Shown here: positions 1 through 9,800 of the stretch, one piece after another
Position numbering within the stretch: position 1 is the first letter of the stretch
Layout of the letters: each line of letters starts with the position of its first letter
DNA from: Marinoscillum furvescens DSM 4134
GTDB taxonomy: Bacteria; Bacteroidota; Bacteroidia; Cytophagales; Cyclobacteriaceae
NCBI RefSeq assembly: GCF_003386095.1
Contig: NZ_QREG01000032.1
Coordinates: 1-50,284, forward strand
DNA: 50,284 nt
Reading direction: 5' to 3'
Position numbers and translations under genes: made by a program
The notes under the pieces: generated by a model
Told to the model about the DNA's origin: nothing
The model's database searches: none
Seen by the model: only the letters and a program-made list of their open reading frames with translations

Positions 1-480
1 AAAATCTTTGATAATAAAGATGCAACAGTCCTTCCCGGTATAACCGATTATGGATGGCTGCAGATATATGGCGAAACGGGGAGTGATTTAAGTAAGTGGC
101 CAACGGAAAAGCACTTTACAAGTTGGCTAGGTTTAGCTCCGGGTCAACATAGGTCGGGGAAAATGAATAAATCACGAAACAGAAAACAACACCCTAAAGC
201 AGGACAAATATTCCGTCAGTTAAGCCAAAGCCTAATCGAGAGCAAACAGATTGCATTAGGGGCTTTTGGCAGGAAGATAAAAAATAAGAAAGGAGCAGGA
301 GTTGCTGTTAAAGCAACAGCTAGGAAGCTAGCGGTGCTATATTGGAAACTTATGGTTAAAGGACTGGCATATACCGAAAAAGGGATTGCGGCATACGAGG
401 AAAGAATAAAACTACAGCAAGAAAGGTGGCTACAAAAAACTGCCAAAAAGCTTGGATACCAGCTTACAGTTAGTACGTAG
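1..480 (+). CDS. IS110-family transposase, C-terminal part (5' end outside window)
   Basis: The reading frame is open from base 1 and ends at TAG 478-480, so the gene starts before the window. The visible ~159 residues match the C-terminal (Transposase_20 / IS116-IS110-IS902) half of IS110-type recombinases: a stretch ITDYGWLQIYGETG, then FTSWLGLAPGQHRSGK, then a basic region and a helical tail. This half carries the conserved serine used in recombination in the family; the N-terminal DEDD RuvC-like half would be upstream. Family knowledge: IS110 elements lack long terminal inverted repeats and are directed by a structured non-coding (bridge/seek) RNA. Only about 20 nt lie between the stop codon and recognisable chromosomal repeat, leaving no room for such an RNA on this side, so it would be expected upstream. 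Whether the whole gene is intact cannot be judged. Confidence 0.85.
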   Translation, partial: KIFDNKDATVLPGITDYGWLQIYGETGSDLSKWPTEKHFTSWLGLAPGQHRSGKMNKSRNRKQHPKAGQIFRQLSQSLIESKQIALGAFGRKIKNKKGAGVAVKATARKLAVLYWKLMVKGLAYTEKGIAAYEERIKLQQERWLQKTAKKLGYQLTVST

Positions 481-496
481 AAAAATACGTCATCGG

Positions 497-840
497 TAGC
501 TTGTCGAAGCATAAGACAAAACCATGTAGTATGATGAGTCGAGTCTTATCCTTCGACAGGCTCAGGATGACTCGACCATGCCTACGGCAGGCAGGCAGGA
601 TGACCCGACTCAGGGTGACCACCAGTTCGAGTTGACCCGACCATGCCACCGCAGGCCCGCCTGCGGCGTGGTGAGCCCGTCGGTTTTGTCATGGTGAGCC
701 TGCCTCTGTCGGCAGACAGGCCCGTCGAAGCATTAGACAAAACCTTGTGTTGAGTGAGCTGGGGTGTCTTATCTTTCGACAGGCTCAAGATGACACCCCA
801 GCTCAGGATGACTCGACTTAGGGTGACTCCCAAGAGCAAA
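497..840. repeat. Dispersed mosaic intergenic repeat with two stem-loops (copy 1)
   Basis: Non-coding block made of modules that recur at 9470-9800. The first stem-loop has arms GTCGAAGCATAAGAC (503-517) and GTCTTATCCTTCGAC (543-557), 15 nt with one mismatch. The second has arms GTCGAAGCATTAGAC (724-738) and GTCTTATCTTTCGAC (766-780). Other shared words are CTTTCGACAGGCTCAAGATGAC-like strings, GCCTGCCTCTGTCGGCAGAC and iterated GGCAGG/TGACTCGAC. A degenerate half copy (GTCGAAGCATTGGAC) sits at 8213-8227. No credible gene is present. It resembles the short palindromic intergenic repeats common in Bacteroidota genomes; function unknown. Confidence 0.8.
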
Positions 841-930: not shown

Positions 931-1578
931 TTAGTTTCTCACCATGACTCCCAGCTTTTCGAGGAGTTGAGGTTTGGATTCCAGGGCTAGCCGCGCTATG
1001 ACTTTCAGCTCGGTACAGTAGTCATCGAGCTGGTCTAGTTTTTCATTGCGCTCTCGGGTGGCTTCTTGTGCCTGGCCGTTTTCTACCGTCACTTTTTCGC
1101 GGAGCTGTTTTAGGTTGTGAACCATATCTTTTTCCTGCTGTATTTTTTCGGTGGTGAGTTTGAATCGGTTCAATGTGGTCACAAATTCTGTTTCGCCCTG
1201 AAGGAGCGTGTAAAAAGTGATGGTATGCTCGATCCAATCGGCTATGCTGTCTGGGAAAGCCGTATGGAGGTTTAGCCGGTTTTGGAGGTCTGCGTCATTG
1301 CGTGACAGTACACGTACCAGTTTTACAGTGCGCGCTACAGCCTCTTGTACTTCATCTTTGGCTACATAAAATTCGTCATAAGCCAAGTCGGACTCGCGGT
1401 ATTCCTGTATTTGTTTTTGGATCAGTTCCGCGGTGGTGTTGTACAAGGTCATGCGCTCGAGGAGGTAGGGTTCGTCTATACCATAAGCGTCTAGCAGTGG
1501 TGCTACTTCTGGGTCTGTACTGTTGAAAATGAGGAGGCGTGCAGCTTCCATCTTTTCGGCGAGTGATTGATTAGGCAT
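931..1578 (-). CDS. Helical orphan protein, 215 aa
   Basis: I do not recognise a named family. The product is acidic, almost entirely predicted alpha-helical, Leu/Glu/Gln/Lys-rich, with no signal peptide, membrane segment or cysteine. Residues ~130-190 (around TTEKIQQEKDMVHNLKQL) look coiled-coil forming. The ATG at 1578 is preceded on the minus strand by about 80 nt of A+T-rich DNA, consistent with a promoter region. Its 3' end is followed by the 870-903 hairpin. Its upstream region contains the 20/21-bp repeat array (1714-2115), so array and gene may be functionally linked. Neighbouring IS110 and R-M genes suggest an accessory gene. Real coding status is supported by length and amino-acid composition; function unknown. 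Confidence 0.7.
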   Translation of the reverse strand: MPNQSLAEKMEAARLLIFNSTDPEVAPLLDAYGIDEPYLLERMTLYNTTAELIQKQIQEYRESDLAYDEFYVAKDEVQEAVARTVKLVRVLSRNDADLQNRLNLHTAFPDSIADWIEHTITFYTLLQGETEFVTTLNRFKLTTEKIQQEKDMVHNLKQLREKVTVENGQAQEATRERNEKLDQLDDYCTELKVIARLALESKPQLLEKLGVMVRN

Positions 1579-1713
1579 AATTGTTTGGTTTAAATGTGAA
1601 ACATGAATTAAATATAAAATAAAAAATGAAAAACGGTGTGTGTAAGGAAGTATTGTGTAGTTGTGTGGTAAACTCTATATAAAGCTAACGGTATATATGT
1701 GTAATAGCGCTGT

Positions 1714-2115
1714 ATGCGTTTTTATGCGTCTTTGTGGGCTCCCCCGGACGGGGCATGCGTTTTTCTGCGTGTTTATGGGCTCCCCCGGACGGGTTATGCG
1801 TTTTATCGGAGGGGAGATGCGTTTTTACGGCTGGGCATGGACTCCCCCTCGAGGAACGTGCATTCCCCCGGAGGGGTGATGCGTTTTTCGGTGGCGGCAT
1901 GCGTTCCCCCGCACGGGTCATGCATTGCAGTACATGGGTGGCGCGTTCCCCCAGCTGGTTATGGACTGCAGCGCATGGGTGGTGCGTTGCCCCTAGCTGG
2001 TTATGGACTCCCCCGCGAGGTTGGTGCATTCCCCCGGGCGGGTGATGCGTTTTTCGCTGGAAGTACGGGTAGCCCAGGAGGGGGCATGCGTTTTATGTGG
2101 TGGGGTGGTGGCTTT
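1714..2115. repeat. Degenerate tandem array of 19-20 units, 20/21 bp each
   Basis: Unit starts read at 1714, 1734, 1755, 1775, 1796, 1817, 1837, 1858, 1879, 1899, 1920, 1941, 1961, 1982, 2003, 2024, 2045, 2065, 2086 and perhaps 2107. Spacing is always 20 or 21 bp; mean 20.67 over 18 steps. Each unit has an anchor (ATGCGTTTTT, ATGGRCTCCCCC, or RTGCRTTCCCCC) followed by a variable G-rich half such as GGACGGGTT, GCACGGGTC, AGCTGGTT. Units with the T5 anchor are 20 bp, most others 21 bp. Because the step changes between 20 and 21, no reading frame is kept, so the open frames across it are not repeats of a protein. It is G+C-rich within A+T-richer surroundings. Confidence 0.85.
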
Positions 2116-2211
2116 GTTTAGTTAGTCACATGGCAATTATCCAAAATGGGACTATACCCCTGAAGAGGAGCATTTCATTCTTAGGTGATTTTTGGAAATC
2201 TTGTGAGTAGA

Positions 2212-3552
2212 CTAAATGTCGTCAAATTGTTCAATAATGTTTTGAGAGGATACTGGGTTAGCAAAACCTATTAGACTTTCAATCATTGTGGACAAGCTCA
2301 GTCTGTCTTTGGTTTTGTAGGCCAGAAGATAAAGTAGAGCTTCTGAAGTGAGAAGTATGAATCTCTTAATGTCCGTGTTCCAAGTGATCTCGTTGATGAA
2401 GGGGTCAAAATTGGATTTGAATGAGTTACTGACAATGATAAAACCGATTTTCTTGTATCCTTCTTTTTGAAGTTTGGGGCAATAATGGTTGATGTACTCT
2501 TTAATTGCCCGGTCGTCAGTACCTAAACTATATCCATTACTGTATGCTTTGGCATCAACAAGAAAAGCAGTGTTCTCCTCTCGCAGTTTGATGATTGCAT
2601 CGGGATTTCGTCCGCTTCCTTGCCCTAAAACATCAACTTCAAAGTCCAAAAGCTTGAAGATTTCAGCAACCAATTTTTCGTATTCCGTTCCTTTGGAAGC
2701 AGCGGATTTATCGGTCTGATTTCCGAGATCGATCAACTTTGCAACTTTAGGAATTAGGTAGTCAGAGAGTTCAAAATTTGCCGTAATCCTTAGCTGGGTT
2801 TCTTCGTTTTCAATTTTTTCTACTATTTCTTTTTTCTTGGTTACCGGTTTTTCGGGTTTGTTCGGATTTCCCTTGAATTTCCAAAATGCGTGTTCGGCTG
2901 CCCAGTTCGAAATATCTCGACCGGCATGTGACTTCAAGATGGACTTAATTTCCTCGTTGAGCTTGTAAAAGTGCCGATAGGATTCCTTTTGAGATTGCTG
3001 ATCTTCCCAGATTTCTATTTCCTGAAACGCCATAGTTAAAGACGTGTACATGATTGGCCACCGCTCATGATCACAAATTTGCCAGAAGTAAGAAAGGAAA
3101 TATCCAACAGATCCGGGGTTTGGTACCTTACGTTTGTCTTTGGCTTTCGAAAAGATGTTGATGCAGTAGGTTTCAAGGCTTTCAATTTTGGCCAGTGCTT
3201 GATCCAATGATTCAGGTTTGGAAATGGCTTGCTTCAAAAGGTAGGTGAGATTATTAGTGTTTTGTTCACTATTCTTGACCAATTGATTGAAGAACATTTG
3301 ACCTTTAGTAGCTGTGAAACCCCAATAGTTGTTGCGCTTATTGTAACTGTCGATATTGGTCTTAAACTCATAGATATCGATTTCTCCCGAAATAAATGAA
3401 TCCATAAAAGCGCTTATATCTGAAATTGCCTCAATTCTGGACTCATCAATGTTGGGTAGTTCGTTTCCCTTGGTATCAAACACCCGCTGGTCAGAGGATG
3501 CGTAAGTATCCCAAATCGATTTTATCTTTTCTATTTTTTCTTCTGGTATCAT
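2212..3552 (-). CDS. FokI-like PD-(D/E)xK nuclease, third gene of R-M operon
   Basis: 446 aa, predicted cytoplasmic. The C-terminal ~160 residues resemble the FokI cleavage domain: helix with E297 (KLVAEIF), then LGQGSGRNPDAI (D318), then VDAKAYSNGYSL (D333, K335), and later FIIVSNSFKSNF. FokI has the parallel series LGGSRKPDGAI, VDTKAYSGGYNL and FLFVSGHFKGNY. The D318/D333/K335 triad fits an active PD-(D/E)xK site. Residues 1-250 are helical and unrecognised; a charged Lys/Glu linker (~232-250) separates the halves. It starts 3 nt after the stop of the specificity gene, so it is co-transcribed with it. Likely role: restriction of foreign DNA with the upstream M and S proteins; which component guides it is unknown. 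Confidence 0.8.
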   Translation of the reverse strand: MIPEEKIEKIKSIWDTYASSDQRVFDTKGNELPNIDESRIEAISDISAFMDSFISGEIDIYEFKTNIDSYNKRNNYWGFTATKGQMFFNQLVKNSEQNTNNLTYLLKQAISKPESLDQALAKIESLETYCINIFSKAKDKRKVPNPGSVGYFLSYFWQICDHERWPIMYTSLTMAFQEIEIWEDQQSQKESYRHFYKLNEEIKSILKSHAGRDISNWAAEHAFWKFKGNPNKPEKPVTKKKEIVEKIENEETQLRITANFELSDYLIPKVAKLIDLGNQTDKSAASKGTEYEKLVAEIFKLLDFEVDVLGQGSGRNPDAIIKLREENTAFLVDAKAYSNGYSLGTDDRAIKEYINHYCPKLQKEGYKKIGFIIVSNSFKSNFDPFINEITWNTDIKRFILLTSEALLYLLAYKTKDRLSLSTMIESLIGFANPVSSQNIIEQFDDI

Positions 3553-3555
3553 AAT

Positions 3556-5031
3556 TCAGGGTTCGAGTATCATTTGTTCAATTTCTGCTCTGGCATCTTC
3601 CAATACCTTATCAGCTACAATGGACAATCGCTGAGCTTCAAACCTTCTCCTGTTGGCTTCTTGACCAATCTCTATCTGCTTATCCAATTTTGGAAGGACT
3701 ATAGATTGATTAAAGTATTCACCCATGATAAGATTACGTATGCCGTTGGTTTGACTCTGCATAATCTCAGTGATTTTGATATTGTGAATTGTTTTGAGAA
3801 AACAGAACAAATAGGAGGGGTCAACTCTTGAGATGTCCACTCTTATTTTATGAATGAAGTTGCTGTAGCACAGCGTATTATTTTCAAATAAATCTTCTGT
3901 AAGCAAAGAGATTCTGCCCACTGGCTGATCTGGGCTACCACCTGATTTTTCTATGAGCAAGTCATAAGGTTGAATGTCTAATTGCTTGAGTTTATCCTTT
4001 TTTATTTTCCTGTACCTAACCCTGTCATTTTCTAGCTTGAGATTGTATAGGTTATCAAACTCAGTGGCTCTGATTACCAAGCAGGTGTCGTATTGATCTT
4101 GCTTAACTTCCGCTTCTTCATCAATTCCCCAATCTCCTGCTGCTGAATGTGTAATCAGGTTTTTAAGAGGCTCTATTGGATATTGGGCATTTTCAACCGC
4201 TGCGAATAGATTTTTGGAATATGTGTCGAATAGTTTAGGGTCAAACCTTCTTCCTGAAAGCTCTTTAAAGGTGGTTTGAAACATTCTTGCTTCAATTCTG
4301 GTGTCTTTCTCTGGTAAAGTAATGCCTAGTTCGTTGAGAATGTAGGAATCGATTGAATCAAGTGTATCTGAGGCCTTTTTCTTTAATTCAAATTTTTTCT
4401 TTTTGGCTTCATCAATAATTGCAACAAACTCTTCCTGCTTCTTAATAGGTGGCACTATCAGTTTCAGTGACTTTATTTCTTCTGCGTTGATATTAGTCAT
4501 TCCCGCTATCTGACGACTAATGCAGTCTACTTGAAGTCTCCCTAATCTTGCATTTAGGAAGTAGGAGGCATATTTTGGTAAAACTTCTGTTTTATCAAGT
4601 ACTACCCGAATAATGTATGAAGCATAAACCCATTTTTCACTTTCATTAAAGACTACACACTTCCCGACTAATTCCTTAGAGTTGGTACGATTGAACAATA
4701 TGTCACCTTTGTTTAAGGAGATATTATCAATTTCTTTCTGAGAAAGTTCAATATGCTTAATGTCAGTCAAGTCAAGATCATCGTCTTGAATATTATTCAT
4801 TCTTAAGATCGGTACTCCTTTTCTTTCGGTATTAGCTAAACTTGAAGTGCCGTATTGGATTTTTGAAAGTACATCCTTAATTCTTTTGACGGGATATATA
4901 GATTTCGCCAATTCCTGTTCTACTTCAATTTTTAACCGATTGTAGTTTGGGTCGAGGCGACCATCAATCTGACTATTCTTGATTAAGAAAGCGATTGGTT
5001 TAATATGTTCAGGGAGTGAATAGCTTTCCAT
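3556..5031 (-). CDS. hsdS: Type I-like restriction-modification specificity subunit (HsdS)
   Basis: 491 aa with the classic two-target-domain layout. TRD1 is within ~20-200 and ends in the conserved region IKSLKLIVPPIKKQEEFVAIIDEAKKK (broken helix ~190-240). TRD2 is ~265-450 and ends in NQSIVLPKLDKQIEIGQEAN followed by a second long helix. Such proteins recognise a bipartite DNA sequence and dock the methyltransferase. The ATG overlaps the stop of the upstream RM gene by one base (TGATG), so translation is coupled. Its length is close to the family norm (~400-500 aa). The TRD sequences give no clue to the recognised site. The next gene follows after 3 nt. Confidence 0.92.
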   Translation of the reverse strand: MESYSLPEHIKPIAFLIKNSQIDGRLDPNYNRLKIEVEQELAKSIYPVKRIKDVLSKIQYGTSSLANTERKGVPILRMNNIQDDDLDLTDIKHIELSQKEIDNISLNKGDILFNRTNSKELVGKCVVFNESEKWVYASYIIRVVLDKTEVLPKYASYFLNARLGRLQVDCISRQIAGMTNINAEEIKSLKLIVPPIKKQEEFVAIIDEAKKKKFELKKKASDTLDSIDSYILNELGITLPEKDTRIEARMFQTTFKELSGRRFDPKLFDTYSKNLFAAVENAQYPIEPLKNLITHSAAGDWGIDEEAEVKQDQYDTCLVIRATEFDNLYNLKLENDRVRYRKIKKDKLKQLDIQPYDLLIEKSGGSPDQPVGRISLLTEDLFENNTLCYSNFIHKIRVDISRVDPSYLFCFLKTIHNIKITEIMQSQTNGIRNLIMGEYFNQSIVLPKLDKQIEIGQEANRRRFEAQRLSIVADKVLEDARAEIEQMILEP

Positions 5032-7244
5032 CAGGCATCTTGCTTATTAACCACATCAATAAAATTTCTCAATTCAGGTACAATTGACTCTAATTCGTTT
5101 TCATTGATCGTTTTCCCTGTTGCATCATATCCAATCTTTTCAGCGATTGCCATAAAGATTGGGTAGTCTTCTAAAGCTTTTTGCTTCTCTTCAAGGTATA
5201 GGTCCGCTAATTGGTCTTTCAGGTCATTTATTTTTTGATTGTACTCCGCATTGATTTCTGACTTCCAGTCCTTGAACTCTTGAGTGGCTTCAATTTCTTT
5301 CTTGCCTAAGTTGGTCGCCTTGGTTTTGCCTGAGTGGCTTTCAAAACCAATATGATCTTTCAGTATCTTTTTCTTTTCCTTCTCCCAATCGGCTATTTGC
5401 TTCTCAAACTTCCGATCTTTCAGTATCTTGTCTTGAACGCTTACTTTCTTCGCTTTAATGGCATCACTGCGCTTACTTGATAGTTTTCTTAAGAACATAA
5501 CCGAGCTTTTTACTGCTGCACCTGTATGAGCAAAAGCGTCTTGCGGCATGGAAACCACGGCTACAATTCTGTACCAATCTTCAATTTGATCTCTGACATA
5601 TTGCAGGCTGCTATTGGTAAGAATACCATCAGGAATAACGATAGCTAAGTAGCCCCCTGGTTTTAAAAATTTGTAGCACTGCTCAATGAACATTACTTCC
5701 GTGCTTTGATTGGCTCTGTTTTTTGCTTTTTGCTTCTTAACATCTAACCAGTCAGCATCTTTAATAGCCATATTGTACTGGTGCATGTAAGCTCTTTCAG
5801 TTTGCCTAACTGTAGAACCAAAAGGAGGGTTGGTAATGATATAGTCGAATGAACCGTATTTGAACTCCTTGTTGCCACTCTTCTTAATCATGTCTTCACT
5901 TGGTAGCAAGCCATCGGAGGCAATTACATTGGTGTGGCCATCATCATGAATAATCATGTTCATTTTGGCTGTACGAGCAATCTGCTCATTAATCTCAATG
6001 CCGAATAGGTTCTTCTCAGCGAAATCGTGCCAATATTTGTAATGCTCTACTGATGTTTCATCATAGTATTCACTTGCTTTTGCTCGAATCTTATCTAAGG
6101 CATAAAGTAGGAAGCCACCACTGCCGCAAGAGGTGTCCAATACTCTGGAGGTGTTTTCTATGGGCAACACATCTACAATGAATTTCACGATATTACGCGG
6201 TGTGAAAAATTGACCAAAATCACCCCTGAAATAACTGCCCATAAAGGCTTCAAATGCTCGACCCTTACTGTCTAAGTCTGTTTTGCTGAGGTTAATGCCT
6301 TCTAAGTAGGTAACTACCGTTCTTACTTTGGCGGCATTCAGTCTTATGTTGTCCTTGAATACTTCCGGGTCGCGCTCTTTTCCTTCGGCATAGAGGGCTA
6401 CAACTCGATCATACAGCTCATTGGTGATTCTTTGTTCGATCTCATCTTTCTTCTTTTTGCTAGCCTTGGGAGGAACCGGAATGTAAAAAATTTGAAATTG
6501 ATAGGGTTCTCCTGTTCTCCTTGGGTGCCGTTCGTCCCATATTTTGCAGAATATGAGTTTGTCCAGTTCATCGAAAGCTTCTGAAGGATTTAGCTCTCCA
6601 CCAGCCCAAAGCGATTGATGTGCTAGTCTAAAGCGTCTGGTCAATTCTTCTTCGCTAACTACCTCTAAGTCAAAAAACTTTTCTTCTGCTTCCAGTTTAT
6701 TGCCATATCCGGCTTCAGGTTCATTGGTGAAATTCCCACTAACTCCACCCTTGGCATATTTGTATTTTGAGATAGTTTTTTGCCCGAATCGGGGAATATC
6801 AGGGATCGAATTTTCATCATGTTGCTCTTTGTTTACCTGATAATAGACATCCTTAATTCCAGATGTTACCCACAGGTATTTGATTGTTTTAGCTGTAGCA
6901 AAACAGTAGGCAAACCCCTGTTTTACCGCTTGTTCAAACTCTAGTTCTGATACTTCAGGCTTTTTACATTCTACAATAATTAGAGGTTCCTTTTTGTCAT
7001 TATCTGCATAGACTAAAATGTCTGCTTCTTTCGTAGTAGATCCCATTGTCACGGGTACGAATTGCTGAATGCGTTCTACAGGATAGCCATATATAAGAAT
7101 GAGCTTAAGGAATGTTTCAGCTTGTACTTGTTCCTCTGGATTGGAGTAGTTCCTTTTTTTATTTTGATGGATGTAGGTGATTTGTTTTCTGTCATTGCTA
7201 AAGGCAATCAAACCTTTTTCTATACCTATATCGATTAAATCCAT
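5031..7244 (-). CDS. Nuclease-methyltransferase fusion (HSDR_N + N6-adenine MTase), BcgI-like RM subunit
   Basis: 737 aa. Residues ~30-140 form an HsdR N-terminal-type nuclease domain with D75 (KEADILVYA) and E92-x-K94 (IIVECKKPE), a complete D-x16-ExK site. Residues ~310-620 are an N6_Mtase domain with helical HsdM-type lead-in, SAM motif LDTSCGSGGF (369-378) and catalytic NPPF (472-475). The C-terminal 120 residues are charged helix, probably contacting HsdS. No helicase motifs occur here or in the neighbouring genes, so this is not a classical type I HsdM. Nuclease and methylase in one chain with a separate S subunit is the layout of type IIB enzymes such as BcgI. It is first in a three-gene leftward operon that is visibly A+T-richer than the region after 9.8 kb, which suggests horizontal transfer. 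Confidence 0.9.
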   Translation of the reverse strand: MDLIDIGIEKGLIAFSNDRKQITYIHQNKKRNYSNPEEQVQAETFLKLILIYGYPVERIQQFVPVTMGSTTKEADILVYADNDKKEPLIIVECKKPEVSELEFEQAVKQGFAYCFATAKTIKYLWVTSGIKDVYYQVNKEQHDENSIPDIPRFGQKTISKYKYAKGGVSGNFTNEPEAGYGNKLEAEEKFFDLEVVSEEELTRRFRLAHQSLWAGGELNPSEAFDELDKLIFCKIWDERHPRRTGEPYQFQIFYIPVPPKASKKKKDEIEQRITNELYDRVVALYAEGKERDPEVFKDNIRLNAAKVRTVVTYLEGINLSKTDLDSKGRAFEAFMGSYFRGDFGQFFTPRNIVKFIVDVLPIENTSRVLDTSCGSGGFLLYALDKIRAKASEYYDETSVEHYKYWHDFAEKNLFGIEINEQIARTAKMNMIIHDDGHTNVIASDGLLPSEDMIKKSGNKEFKYGSFDYIITNPPFGSTVRQTERAYMHQYNMAIKDADWLDVKKQKAKNRANQSTEVMFIEQCYKFLKPGGYLAIVIPDGILTNSSLQYVRDQIEDWYRIVAVVSMPQDAFAHTGAAVKSSVMFLRKLSSKRSDAIKAKKVSVQDKILKDRKFEKQIADWEKEKKKILKDHIGFESHSGKTKATNLGKKEIEATQEFKDWKSEINAEYNQKINDLKDQLADLYLEEKQKALEDYPIFMAIAEKIGYDATGKTINENELESIVPELRNFIDVVNKQDA

Positions 7245-7414: not shown

Positions 7415-7446
7415 AAACCCTGGTGGTTTTGAAAACCTCCAGGGTT
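7415..7446. repeat. Dispersed hairpin (CCTGGAGG family), copy with one arm mismatch
   Basis: Reads AAACCCTGGTGGTTTT then GAAAACCTCCAGGGTTTT. It is the same palindrome as at 8147 and 9426, with one mismatch in the left arm (GGTGG against CCTCC). T-run after the right arm; could terminate rightward transcription, but no rightward gene lies before it. Confidence 0.7.
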
Positions 7447-7634
7447 TTTGTGAGATAAATAAATGTTCATATTAGGGATGAAGTTTGGAGTGTAATTTCC
7501 ATCAAGCTGGAAGGTATTTTAGGATAATTAGGATTTTGTTGGGATTAGGCGGTCAGTGGGTCCGTATAAATACCGACTTGTGTAAAGATTCTTCATGACA
7601 TAAGGCGGGATCGTGAATTTTTTATGTAGTTTAA

Positions 7635-8008: not shown

Positions 8009-8146
8009 AATCTTATAGAAAGTAAATTATCAATTTCGATGTGAGTTACGATGGAGATGGTATTCTTCAAGGCCGCAACAAGTGTGTTGCCTGTGGCTAT
8101 TAGAAATAATCTGTTTTCAAGGTAGCTCACTTCATCTGGCTTGAAT

Positions 8147-8183
8147 AAACCCTGGAGGTTTTCGAAACCTCCAGGGTTTTTTT
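8147..8183. repeat. Dispersed hairpin (CCTGGAGG family)
   Basis: AAACCCTGGAGGTTT / AAACCTCCAGGGTTT perfect arms followed by a T-run and TTTGAGGTG. It lies 140 nt after the 7799-8008 gene and 105 nt after the end of the leftward gene 8289-9299, so it could terminate either. The trailing TTTGAGGTG is shared with the copy at 9426. The rest of the 280-nt gap holds only a half copy of the mosaic repeat (8213-8227). Confidence 0.75.
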
Positions 8184-8288
8184 GAGGTGGTGAAGTTTGT
8201 CAAAGTGAGTACCGTCGAAGCATTGGACAAATCCTAGTGCTCTATTAAGCTGGGGTGTTTATAAAAATCGAGGAGATACTCCGCTTTG

Positions 8289-9425: not shown

Positions 9426-9463
9426 AAACCCTGGAGGTTTTGAAAACCTCCAGGGTTTTTTTT
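9426..9463. repeat. Dispersed hairpin (CCTGGAGG family)
   Basis: Perfect arms AAACCCTGGAGGTTTT / AAAACCTCCAGGGTTT with a single-base loop and an 8-T tail, followed by TTTGAGGTG as in the copy at 8147. No rightward gene ends just before it; the nearest leftward gene (9815-12646) ends 350 nt to the right, with the mosaic repeat between. Confidence 0.75.
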
Positions 9464-9469
9464 GAGGTG

Positions 9470-9800
9470 ACAGGCCCGCCTGCGGCGTGAAAGGCCCTCC
9501 TCCGGCGAGGCAGGCCCGTTGGTTTTGTCATGTTGAGCCTGCCTCTGTCGGCAGACAGGCTTGGGGGACGCCTAGTCTCGAACTATCAGACAAAACCTTG
9601 TGGGATGGGGTATGATGAGTCGGTTCTATCTTTCGACAGGCTCAAGATGACCCGACTCAGGGTGACCACCAGTTCCAGGCGACTCGACCATGCCTCCGGC
9701 GGGCAGGCAGGCAGGATGACTCGACCATGCCTCCGGCAGGCCCGCCTTTGGCGCGGCAGGCAGGCAGGGTGACTCGACTCGGGGTGACTCGGCTATGCCT
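9470..9800. repeat. Dispersed mosaic intergenic repeat (copy 2)
   Basis: Shares long near-identical words with 497-840: GGCCCGCCTGCGGCGTG, GGTTTTGTCATG, GAGCCTGCCTCTGTCGGCAG, CAGACAAAACCTTGTG, TATGATGAGTCG, TCTTTCGACAGGCTCAAGAT and several TGACTCGACCATGCCT modules. The left arm of its stem-loop is damaged (CTCGAACTATCAGAC) while the right arm is intact. It fills most of the 515-nt gap between 9299 and 9815; no gene is seen. Confidence 0.8.

Follow-up and report, generated by a model that had tools for sequence, protein, structure and literature searches.

The stretch of DNA analysed here (50,284 nt; hereafter the window) is one whole contig (C32) of the 5.96 Mb genome of Marinoscillum furvescens DSM 4134. 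Near its left end lie a minus-strand gene of the PQLLE family, a tandem array and an R-M operon (Table 1). As the R-M genes and the PQLLE gene are both on the minus strand, the array is bounded by the 3' end of the former and the start of the latter, where the original prediction had placed it. The R-M operon is an unusual mix of an HSDR_N_2/N6-methylase protein, a type I specificity subunit and a FokI-type/Mrr nuclease, with no helicase family listed for the three proteins. Elsewhere in the window, two GC-rich stretches have the phrases CTTTCGACAGGCTCAAGATGAC and ACTCGACCATGCC in common and are apparently a dispersed repeat, a hairpin (CCCTGGAGGTTTT..AAACCTCCAGGG) with T runs behind it appears in three nearly identical copies, and the first 480 nt resemble what we take to be a transposase end of IS110 type, within which one ORF has no Pfam match.

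Table 1. Features of the window discussed in the text.
Feature	Position	Strand	Remarks
Putative transposase end	1..480	+	Presumably IS110 type
ORF	163..480	+	
GC-rich stretches	about 550..840, 9467..9800		
PQLLE family protein gene (NF052641)	931..1578	-	215 aa; all-helical model, internal duplication
Putative promoter motif TATATTT	1610..1616	-	Between array and gene; sequence match only
Array edge nearest gene	1704..1754	-	Half-step; common to the genome's three other copies; alignment
Tandem array	1714..2115	-	19 units, 20/21-bp step, mean 20.67
Array core, gene sense			R-Y-S-C-A-Y; mostly with AAAAA or GGGGGA before it
Array anchors 1-10	1714, 1734, 1755, 1775, 1796, 1817, 1837, 1858, 1879, 1899		
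Array anchors 11-19	1920, 1941, 1961, 1982, 2003, 2024, 2045, 2065, 2086		
ORF across array	1714..2121	+	
R-M operon	2212..7244	-	Three proteins
Hairpins followed by T runs	about 7415..7450, 8145..8185, 9428..9462		

The array of the window

The anchor pattern of the array, fitted partly by eye, consists of 18 steps, every one of them 20 or 21 bp, with an extra half-step anchor at 1724; automatic segmentation with steps of 19-23 bp allowed agrees with it, giving 19 units and the same mean. Autocorrelation reaches 0.512 at lag 41 (z 9.9) and 0.500 at lag 62 (z 9.3), with further peaks including lags 124 (z 7.8), 83 (z 7.0), 21 (z 6.7) and 103, while 300 dinucleotide shuffles gave no value above 0.389 at any lag between 3 and 129. 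The periods assigned here by Tandem Repeats Finder are 41, 21, 62 and 42. The strict 20/21-bp step and its mean, claimed from the letters of the sequence, are thus confirmed by anchors, segmentation and autocorrelation alike, and the 62-bp rhythm of steps (21-21-20) is present as described. One plus-strand frame is open across the array (Table 1); given the mixed 20/21 steps, it encodes no repeat peptide. Between array and gene, the TATATTT match presumably represents a Bacteroidota -7-like motif; no clear -33 partner was noted.

The PQLLE protein

The gene beside the array had been thought an orphan, which is not borne out: its product matches the NCBIfam model NF052641, 'PQLLE family protein' (198.9 bits, cut-off 80, E 7.6e-59), as do all 30 members of our PQLLE set A2. 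The name of the model gives no function. The product has no Pfam family above cut-off, and Pfam, NCBIfam, PDB sequence and fold searches found no known DNA-binding domain or fold in the protein. The structure predicted from 30 aligned members is all-helical (mean pLDDT 95.7, pTM 0.81), with two 56-residue helices (36-91 and 143-198) and shorter helices before each. When the two halves of the family profile are compared by hhalign they align to each other with a probability of 99.3 (E 1.3e-20), which indicates an internal duplication. Foldseek returned no solved or viral structural relative of the model at E <= 0.001. The window protein is acidic (pI 4.8; about 4.8 to 9.7 across the family, 5th-95th percentile, n = 156), and the existence of such acidic members argues against simple electrostatic DNA binding.

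No conserved neighbour gene is evident at PQLLE loci among 76 of 100 listed neighbours, the 24 omitted being neighbours within the upstream stretch that holds the array, those of repeated loci and two homologues of a kept protein; the commonest Pfam family occurs in 3 of the 76 (best 25 of 103 families). Nor is a defence island evident, PADLOC matches being mainly to methyltransferases (best 25 of 176 families). There was no match to PQLLE in plasmids (72,556 records) or phages with one protein as query (for the plasmids that of locus L006), or in viral contigs, and the arrays described below were found in contigs as long as 6.2 Mb.

The host genome contains one other PQLLE match (L006/L010), and it has its own upstream array, unlike that of the window in sequence (ACAGCTACCAGC...AAAAAA) and like it in step (Tandem Repeats Finder periods 20, 41 and 61). 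This second pair of gene and array led us to examine the association across the family.

Most tested PQLLE genes follow an array

PQLLE homologues were collected from relatives (5 of 59 genomes), from the GTDB family and from named public genomes (63 loci). Within the GTDB family, 36 of 295 genomes have a match at E <= 1e-10, 34 of them above the model cut-off, as compared with none of 14 control genomes. The named loci come from Bacteroidota isolates and MAGs, and also from MAGs labelled Chloroflexota, KSB1, Aminicenantes, Spirochaetes and others, labels that we take as given in the records.

For each gene the stretch from -400 to -30 was compared with its own dinucleotide shuffles over lags 5-149, and a gene was counted as in phase if z exceeded 4 at any one of the lags 20, 21, 41, 42, 62, 63, 83 and 84, a set chosen after the first 98 genes (98 of 104 with enough flank). 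The named set lost 5 of its 63 loci to short flanks, and 12 of the other 58 were repeats, leaving 46 new genes and 144 in all. An in-phase signal lies upstream of 92 of the 144 distinct genes (54 of 98 in the first set, 38 of 46 in the new one). When the lags are shifted by -10, -8, -5, 5, 8 and 10, only 1, 2, 2, 0, 3 and 0 genes pass, and 8 of 144 pass downstream. Mean z in the first set peaks at lags 42, 21, 84, 126, 63, 41 and 105, against downstream values of at most 0.67; over the 58 named loci it falls from 7.5 at lag 21 and 6.95 at 42 through 4.9 at 63, 4.4 at 84, 3.4 at 105 and 3.0 at 126 to 2.3 at 147, with small downstream peaks of 1.55 at 21 and 1.4 at 42. Most tested PQLLE genes are accordingly preceded by an array whose step is two helical turns.

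The controls that did pass can be examined individually. Upstream stretches of other genes at the named loci are in phase in 8 of 107 cases versus 2 of 107 with the lags shifted by 10, and those eight include two arrays between PQLLE genes, one array on the downstream side of a PQLLE gene, and one signal that, as we read it, overlies a leucine-rich coding repeat. The five downstream positives of the named set comprise two shared arrays (L149, L167), two downstream arrays (L175, L176) and a repeat of another kind (L153).

That arrays always lie upstream of homologues, the point put up for testing, therefore holds for most genes and fails as a rule, with 52 of the 144 below threshold. Most of these are in genomes with many paralogues; even so, mean z over the 44 in the first set is greatest at lag 42 (1.38). 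A later phylum-wide sample found PQLLE in 6 of 395 genomes (the window genome included) and yielded eight further genes, four of which pass; of the others, two peak below threshold at lag 21 or 42, a third is a broken gene in which coding sequence fills the tested stretch, and the last gives no signal. Position varies too: at L175 and L176 an array with a 21-bp step lies downstream of the gene and not upstream, facing the other way at L176, and at L149 and L167, two contigs of one Aminicenantes-labelled MAG, two PQLLE genes flank an array that flips strand midway at GTACCGGTACA, forming a large inverted repeat.

Seven genomes (G016, G116, G123, G158, G097, G150 and G199) have at least nine or ten PQLLE matches each, many with 41-43-bp signals. 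In one of the many-paralogue genomes the units of an array are palindromic (AGAAGGACGTCCTTCT, L085).

Constant step, changing sequence

Arrays were segmented at 104 loci with z > 4 (92 without repeats), and later tests used the better-scoring 72-74. Across the 104 loci, which differ in sequence, the mean step stays within 20.2-21.25 bp (19-23 allowed). Unit number in the 74 good arrays runs from 9 to 19 (5th-95th percentile); the mean step is exactly 21 in 36 of them and below 20.6 in nine, and it is 20.3-20.5 in three distinct segmented CAGCTACC arrays (L006, L036, L041). At least one step is not divisible by 3 in 42 of the 74, and 52 have a stop codon in every sense frame. The gap to the start codon, as segmented, is under 45 bp in some arrays, which leaves little room for a promoter.

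The geometry of a non-coding DNA or RNA element, put forward for the window, is supported by the constancy of this step. Spacing that preserves the frame at 21 only, the contrary outcome, describes about half of the arrays by their means and is contradicted by the 42 with a step that is not a multiple of 3. Neither a loss of the peaks at 20-21 and 41-42 nor spacing that is random or confined to 21 was found.

In the 38 arrays of mixed step, longer and shorter steps follow one another more evenly than expected by chance (Fisher p 5e-8; p <= 0.05 in 11 of the arrays; p = 0.064 for the window array), in a test that takes in 20/22 alternations of 42-bp units, several of them among its strongest cases. 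The steps are ordered as though absolute phase were kept; block duplication could be another source of the same evenness.

Alignment of 72 array profiles gives a meta-consensus, AAA-Y-S-R-Y-W, in place of which the clade of the window has R-Y-S-C-A-Y. RYSRY is present in at least 60% of units at the core column in 33 of 72 arrays versus 0-6 of 72 elsewhere, in an alignment chosen to favour the core, and the strand of the core is weakly marked (profile alignment scores of 0.48-0.49 after random strand flips versus 0.507). Unit sequence differs between loci, including paralogues of one genome, and follows the adjacent protein: array similarity climbs from 0.29-0.30 at 20-30% protein identity to 0.78 above 70%, with 0.27-0.36 for the reverse complement, and its correlation with protein identity (Mantel r 0.379, 72 arrays) lies well above the maximum of 999 permutations (0.137). 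Array sequence thus diverges together with the PQLLE protein, as would be expected from linkage alone as well.

Two candidate traits were rejected. G and C alternate at the S position of the core with p < 0.05 in 3 of 12 mixed arrays, and the step does not depend on S. A terminal inverted unit is no general trait (1 of 55 arrays at p <= 0.01, with L179-L182 unflagged at p <= 0.05). By eye, the Chryseobacterium/Kaistella arrays (L181, L184, L210, L213, L212), which comprise cis arrays and one shared lone place, have one inverted unit at the gene-side end (e.g. TTGCGGAAYGATTTCYG) that the statistical test does not flag.

Arrays away from any PQLLE gene

The array of the window has three further copies in its own genome that align with it unit by unit at 22-27% sequence difference. 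Two copies of this type share the step order 21-20-21-21-20-21-21-20-21-21-20-21-20, followed in one of them by a 25 step at its edge, and the alignment gives no evident likeness among copies beyond the gene-proximal edge. The other array type of this genome (L006/L010) has two lone copies, one of them downstream of what we read as a gcvP-type gene.

Seven genomes were probed, each with its own array or that of a close relative, and 6 of them contain lone arrays: two in G317, three in G319, two in G320 and one in G287, which also has an array beside a PQLLE remnant (L202). Ekhidna (G321) has two further arrays, one followed by a PQLLE remnant (L221), and the second array of G318 precedes an intact second PQLLE gene (L212, E 3e-62). 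By tblastn and HMM, 14 of the 17 distinct arrays away from known genes thus have no trace of PQLLE, two adjoin these remnants and one belongs to this gene. Two lone places are common to three species, with flanking proteins 82-99% identical and units that vary in sequence and number; one lies between presumed KTSC-type and dihydrolipoyl-dehydrogenase-type genes, the other between presumed citrate-synthase-type and aldehyde-dehydrogenase-type genes. At least the lone arrays at these shared places are therefore stable residents, while the remnants at two loci suggest that some may be leftovers that outlived their gene.

The ATGCGT-type array was found in no other genome of the 59 searched, those of the same genus included, and the Ekhidna array as query finds in G322-G325 either nothing or the genome's own array alone. 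Weak short matches to arrays occur at L185-L188, L195 and L199. A hairpin resembling the triple one of the window also follows a lone array in L007, and two near-identical copies of a RAYT-like signature are found near the lone array L222.

DNA, RNA and other readings of the array

Our leading interpretation, which we rate at roughly an even chance of being right, is that the PQLLE gene and the helix-phased array belong together as a single genetic unit in which PQLLE serves as a DNA-binding ruler on its own arrays. If the array instead acted as RNA, each 20-21-nt unit of the transcript would bind the PQLLE protein, either as a type III toxin-antitoxin pair or as an autoregulatory leader, and the other arrays would be extra sources of RNA in 3' UTRs. 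This we think rather improbable, though it draws on several observations: the array is mostly upstream of one gene and in a common orientation, profiles above 45% protein identity agree at 0.38-0.78 on the same strand versus 0.29-0.36 on the opposite one, the lone arrays L203, L204, L009, L200 and L216 lie in sense downstream of a gene, and some arrays come so close to the ATG. Folding of the first 9 units against 15 shuffles, in a model that leaves out pseudoknots, gives a mean z of -1.2 for sense and antisense alike, with values of -4 to -6 in a few arrays. Yet the same test reveals no strand-specific RNA fold across the 74 arrays, with medians of -1.0 (sense) and -0.75 (antisense), and with 27% of arrays below -2 in sense versus 30% in antisense. 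A promoter-like pair lies between array and gene at 13 of 61 loci, compared with 5.4 +/- 2.1 after shuffling, and inside the array in 1 of 74, so that the promoter-like motifs come after the array; at L181, by our reading, the terminator-like hairpin of the preceding gene abuts the array start. The midway strand switch at L149 and L167 and the reversed array at L176 also count against RNA, as does the all-helical PQLLE model, since ToxN-type nucleases have a different fold. The evidence favours DNA over RNA as the working form of the array, though not strongly.

That the arrays serve a general host factor (e.g. gyrase or a nucleoid protein) as BIMEs do in E. coli, or are REP-like elements that a RAYT transposase has spread, with PQLLE a mere neighbour, seems to us unlikely. 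REP/BIME elements often lie between convergent genes, as do the lone arrays L009, L200, L203 and L204, and a RAYT-like signature (NHLHL) occurs near the lone array L222 and near the PQLLE gene L120; that signature is nevertheless confined to one locus among 18 with lone arrays and one among the 63 named PQLLE loci, and unit sequence differs between paralogues of the same genome and follows the adjacent protein. Intrinsic curvature from phased A-tracts, with the sequence otherwise free, is a very unlikely function: AAA is found in many units, as the meta-consensus reflects, and an A/T tract of at least 4 in a median of 40% of units, but such tracts occur in fewer than 20% of units in 20 of 74 arrays, which weakens this reading, and in no unit of six (L044, L140, L153, L162, L165, L172). 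Least credible of all is a heptad-type peptide encoded by the repeats (21 bp for 7 aa), for which the arrays with a mean step of exactly 21 would speak; the steps that are not multiples of 3 and the stops in the sense frames lead us to reject a coding repeat as a general account.

Comparison with known systems

Type III toxin-antitoxin loci carry tandem repeats, very different from locus to locus, directly upstream of a small protein gene, according to excerpts of one study (PMC4627078). PQLLE genes resemble such loci (ToxIN, CptIN, TenpIN) in the tandem repeats upstream, both in the window and in the 92 of 144 family members. They differ from them in that the protein is all-helical in the model, with no match to ToxN, CptN or TenpN in Pfam, NCBIfam or PDB sequences, and in that the arrays show no strand-specific fold in a model without pseudoknots, occur elsewhere in the genome as well and keep a step near 21 bp. 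Direct repeats about two turns apart beside the gene for their binding protein also characterize iterons with Rep and the parC centromeres of ParR. The PQLLE repeats, about two helical turns apart and beside the gene for a presumed binding protein, are similar, but there is no match to a Rep or ParR domain in PQLLE, and some genomes have many paralogues. Unlike iteron replicons, the family is unmatched in the plasmid records with L006 as query, and its arrays occur in the long contigs noted above. An actin- or tubulin-like motor gene of the ParR/parC type is not among the families listed for the 76 neighbours (best 25 of 103).

In REP/BIME systems with a RAYT, the gene is flanked by its own repeats and copies lie elsewhere between genes, an arrangement shared by PQLLE, whose units in contrast are mostly direct repeats in few copies; no Y1 transposase match was found among 30 PQLLE members. 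The TAACTGA direct repeats of Beggiatoaceae, Cyanobacteria and Bacteroidetes, as described in excerpts of PMC4679880, lie upstream of start codons in up to 43 copies. PQLLE repeat sets share that placement; the TAACTGA unit, in contrast, is of 7 bp and, in those excerpts, has no tie to a single protein family (PMC4679880). Whereas CRISPR combines constant repeats with unique spacers, the 20-21-bp units of the better arrays are constrained over most columns. Each of type III toxin-antitoxin, iterons, parC, REP/RAYT and CRISPR shares some trait with the PQLLE arrays, and for each another trait fails or is unsupported.

The PQLLE family had already been named by NCBI, so that what appears to be new is its tie to helix-phased arrays, both those next to the gene and those elsewhere. 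Among the matches listed for open PMC, a scope with subscription journals and preprints outside it, there was no paper on PQLLE, NF052641 or such arrays.

A proposed mechanism and its meaning

We infer that PQLLE, as a single molecule or an oligomer, binds to the double-stranded DNA of the array. At 1.5 A per residue a 56-residue helix measures about 84 A, and 21 bp of DNA span about 71 A; the nearness of these lengths suggests that an elongated, duplicated protein could contact neighbouring units. With its two homologous halves and their long helices, one molecule could bridge neighbouring units on one face of the DNA helix, and PQLLE molecules could assemble cooperatively along some 8-20 sites. 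Binding to the cis array, upstream of the promoter of the gene, might bring about autoregulation, and arrays away from the gene could serve as additional loading sites, marking, insulating or bridging places on the chromosome. A fuller version, possible but in our view doubtful, is a new kind of chromosome-marking system in which every PQLLE paralogue would act as a two-turn molecular ruler for an evolving DNA address of its own, polymerizing on the cis array and a few distant ones and linking or insulating them.

Under the interpretation of PQLLE as a ruler on its own arrays, a family known by its motif name alone now has a DNA partner whose physical period is strict. Paralogues with different units would provide natural matched protein-DNA pairs from which a recognition code could be learned, and, if the chromosome-marking proposal is true, a genome with about ten paralogues would operate several DNA addresses in parallel.
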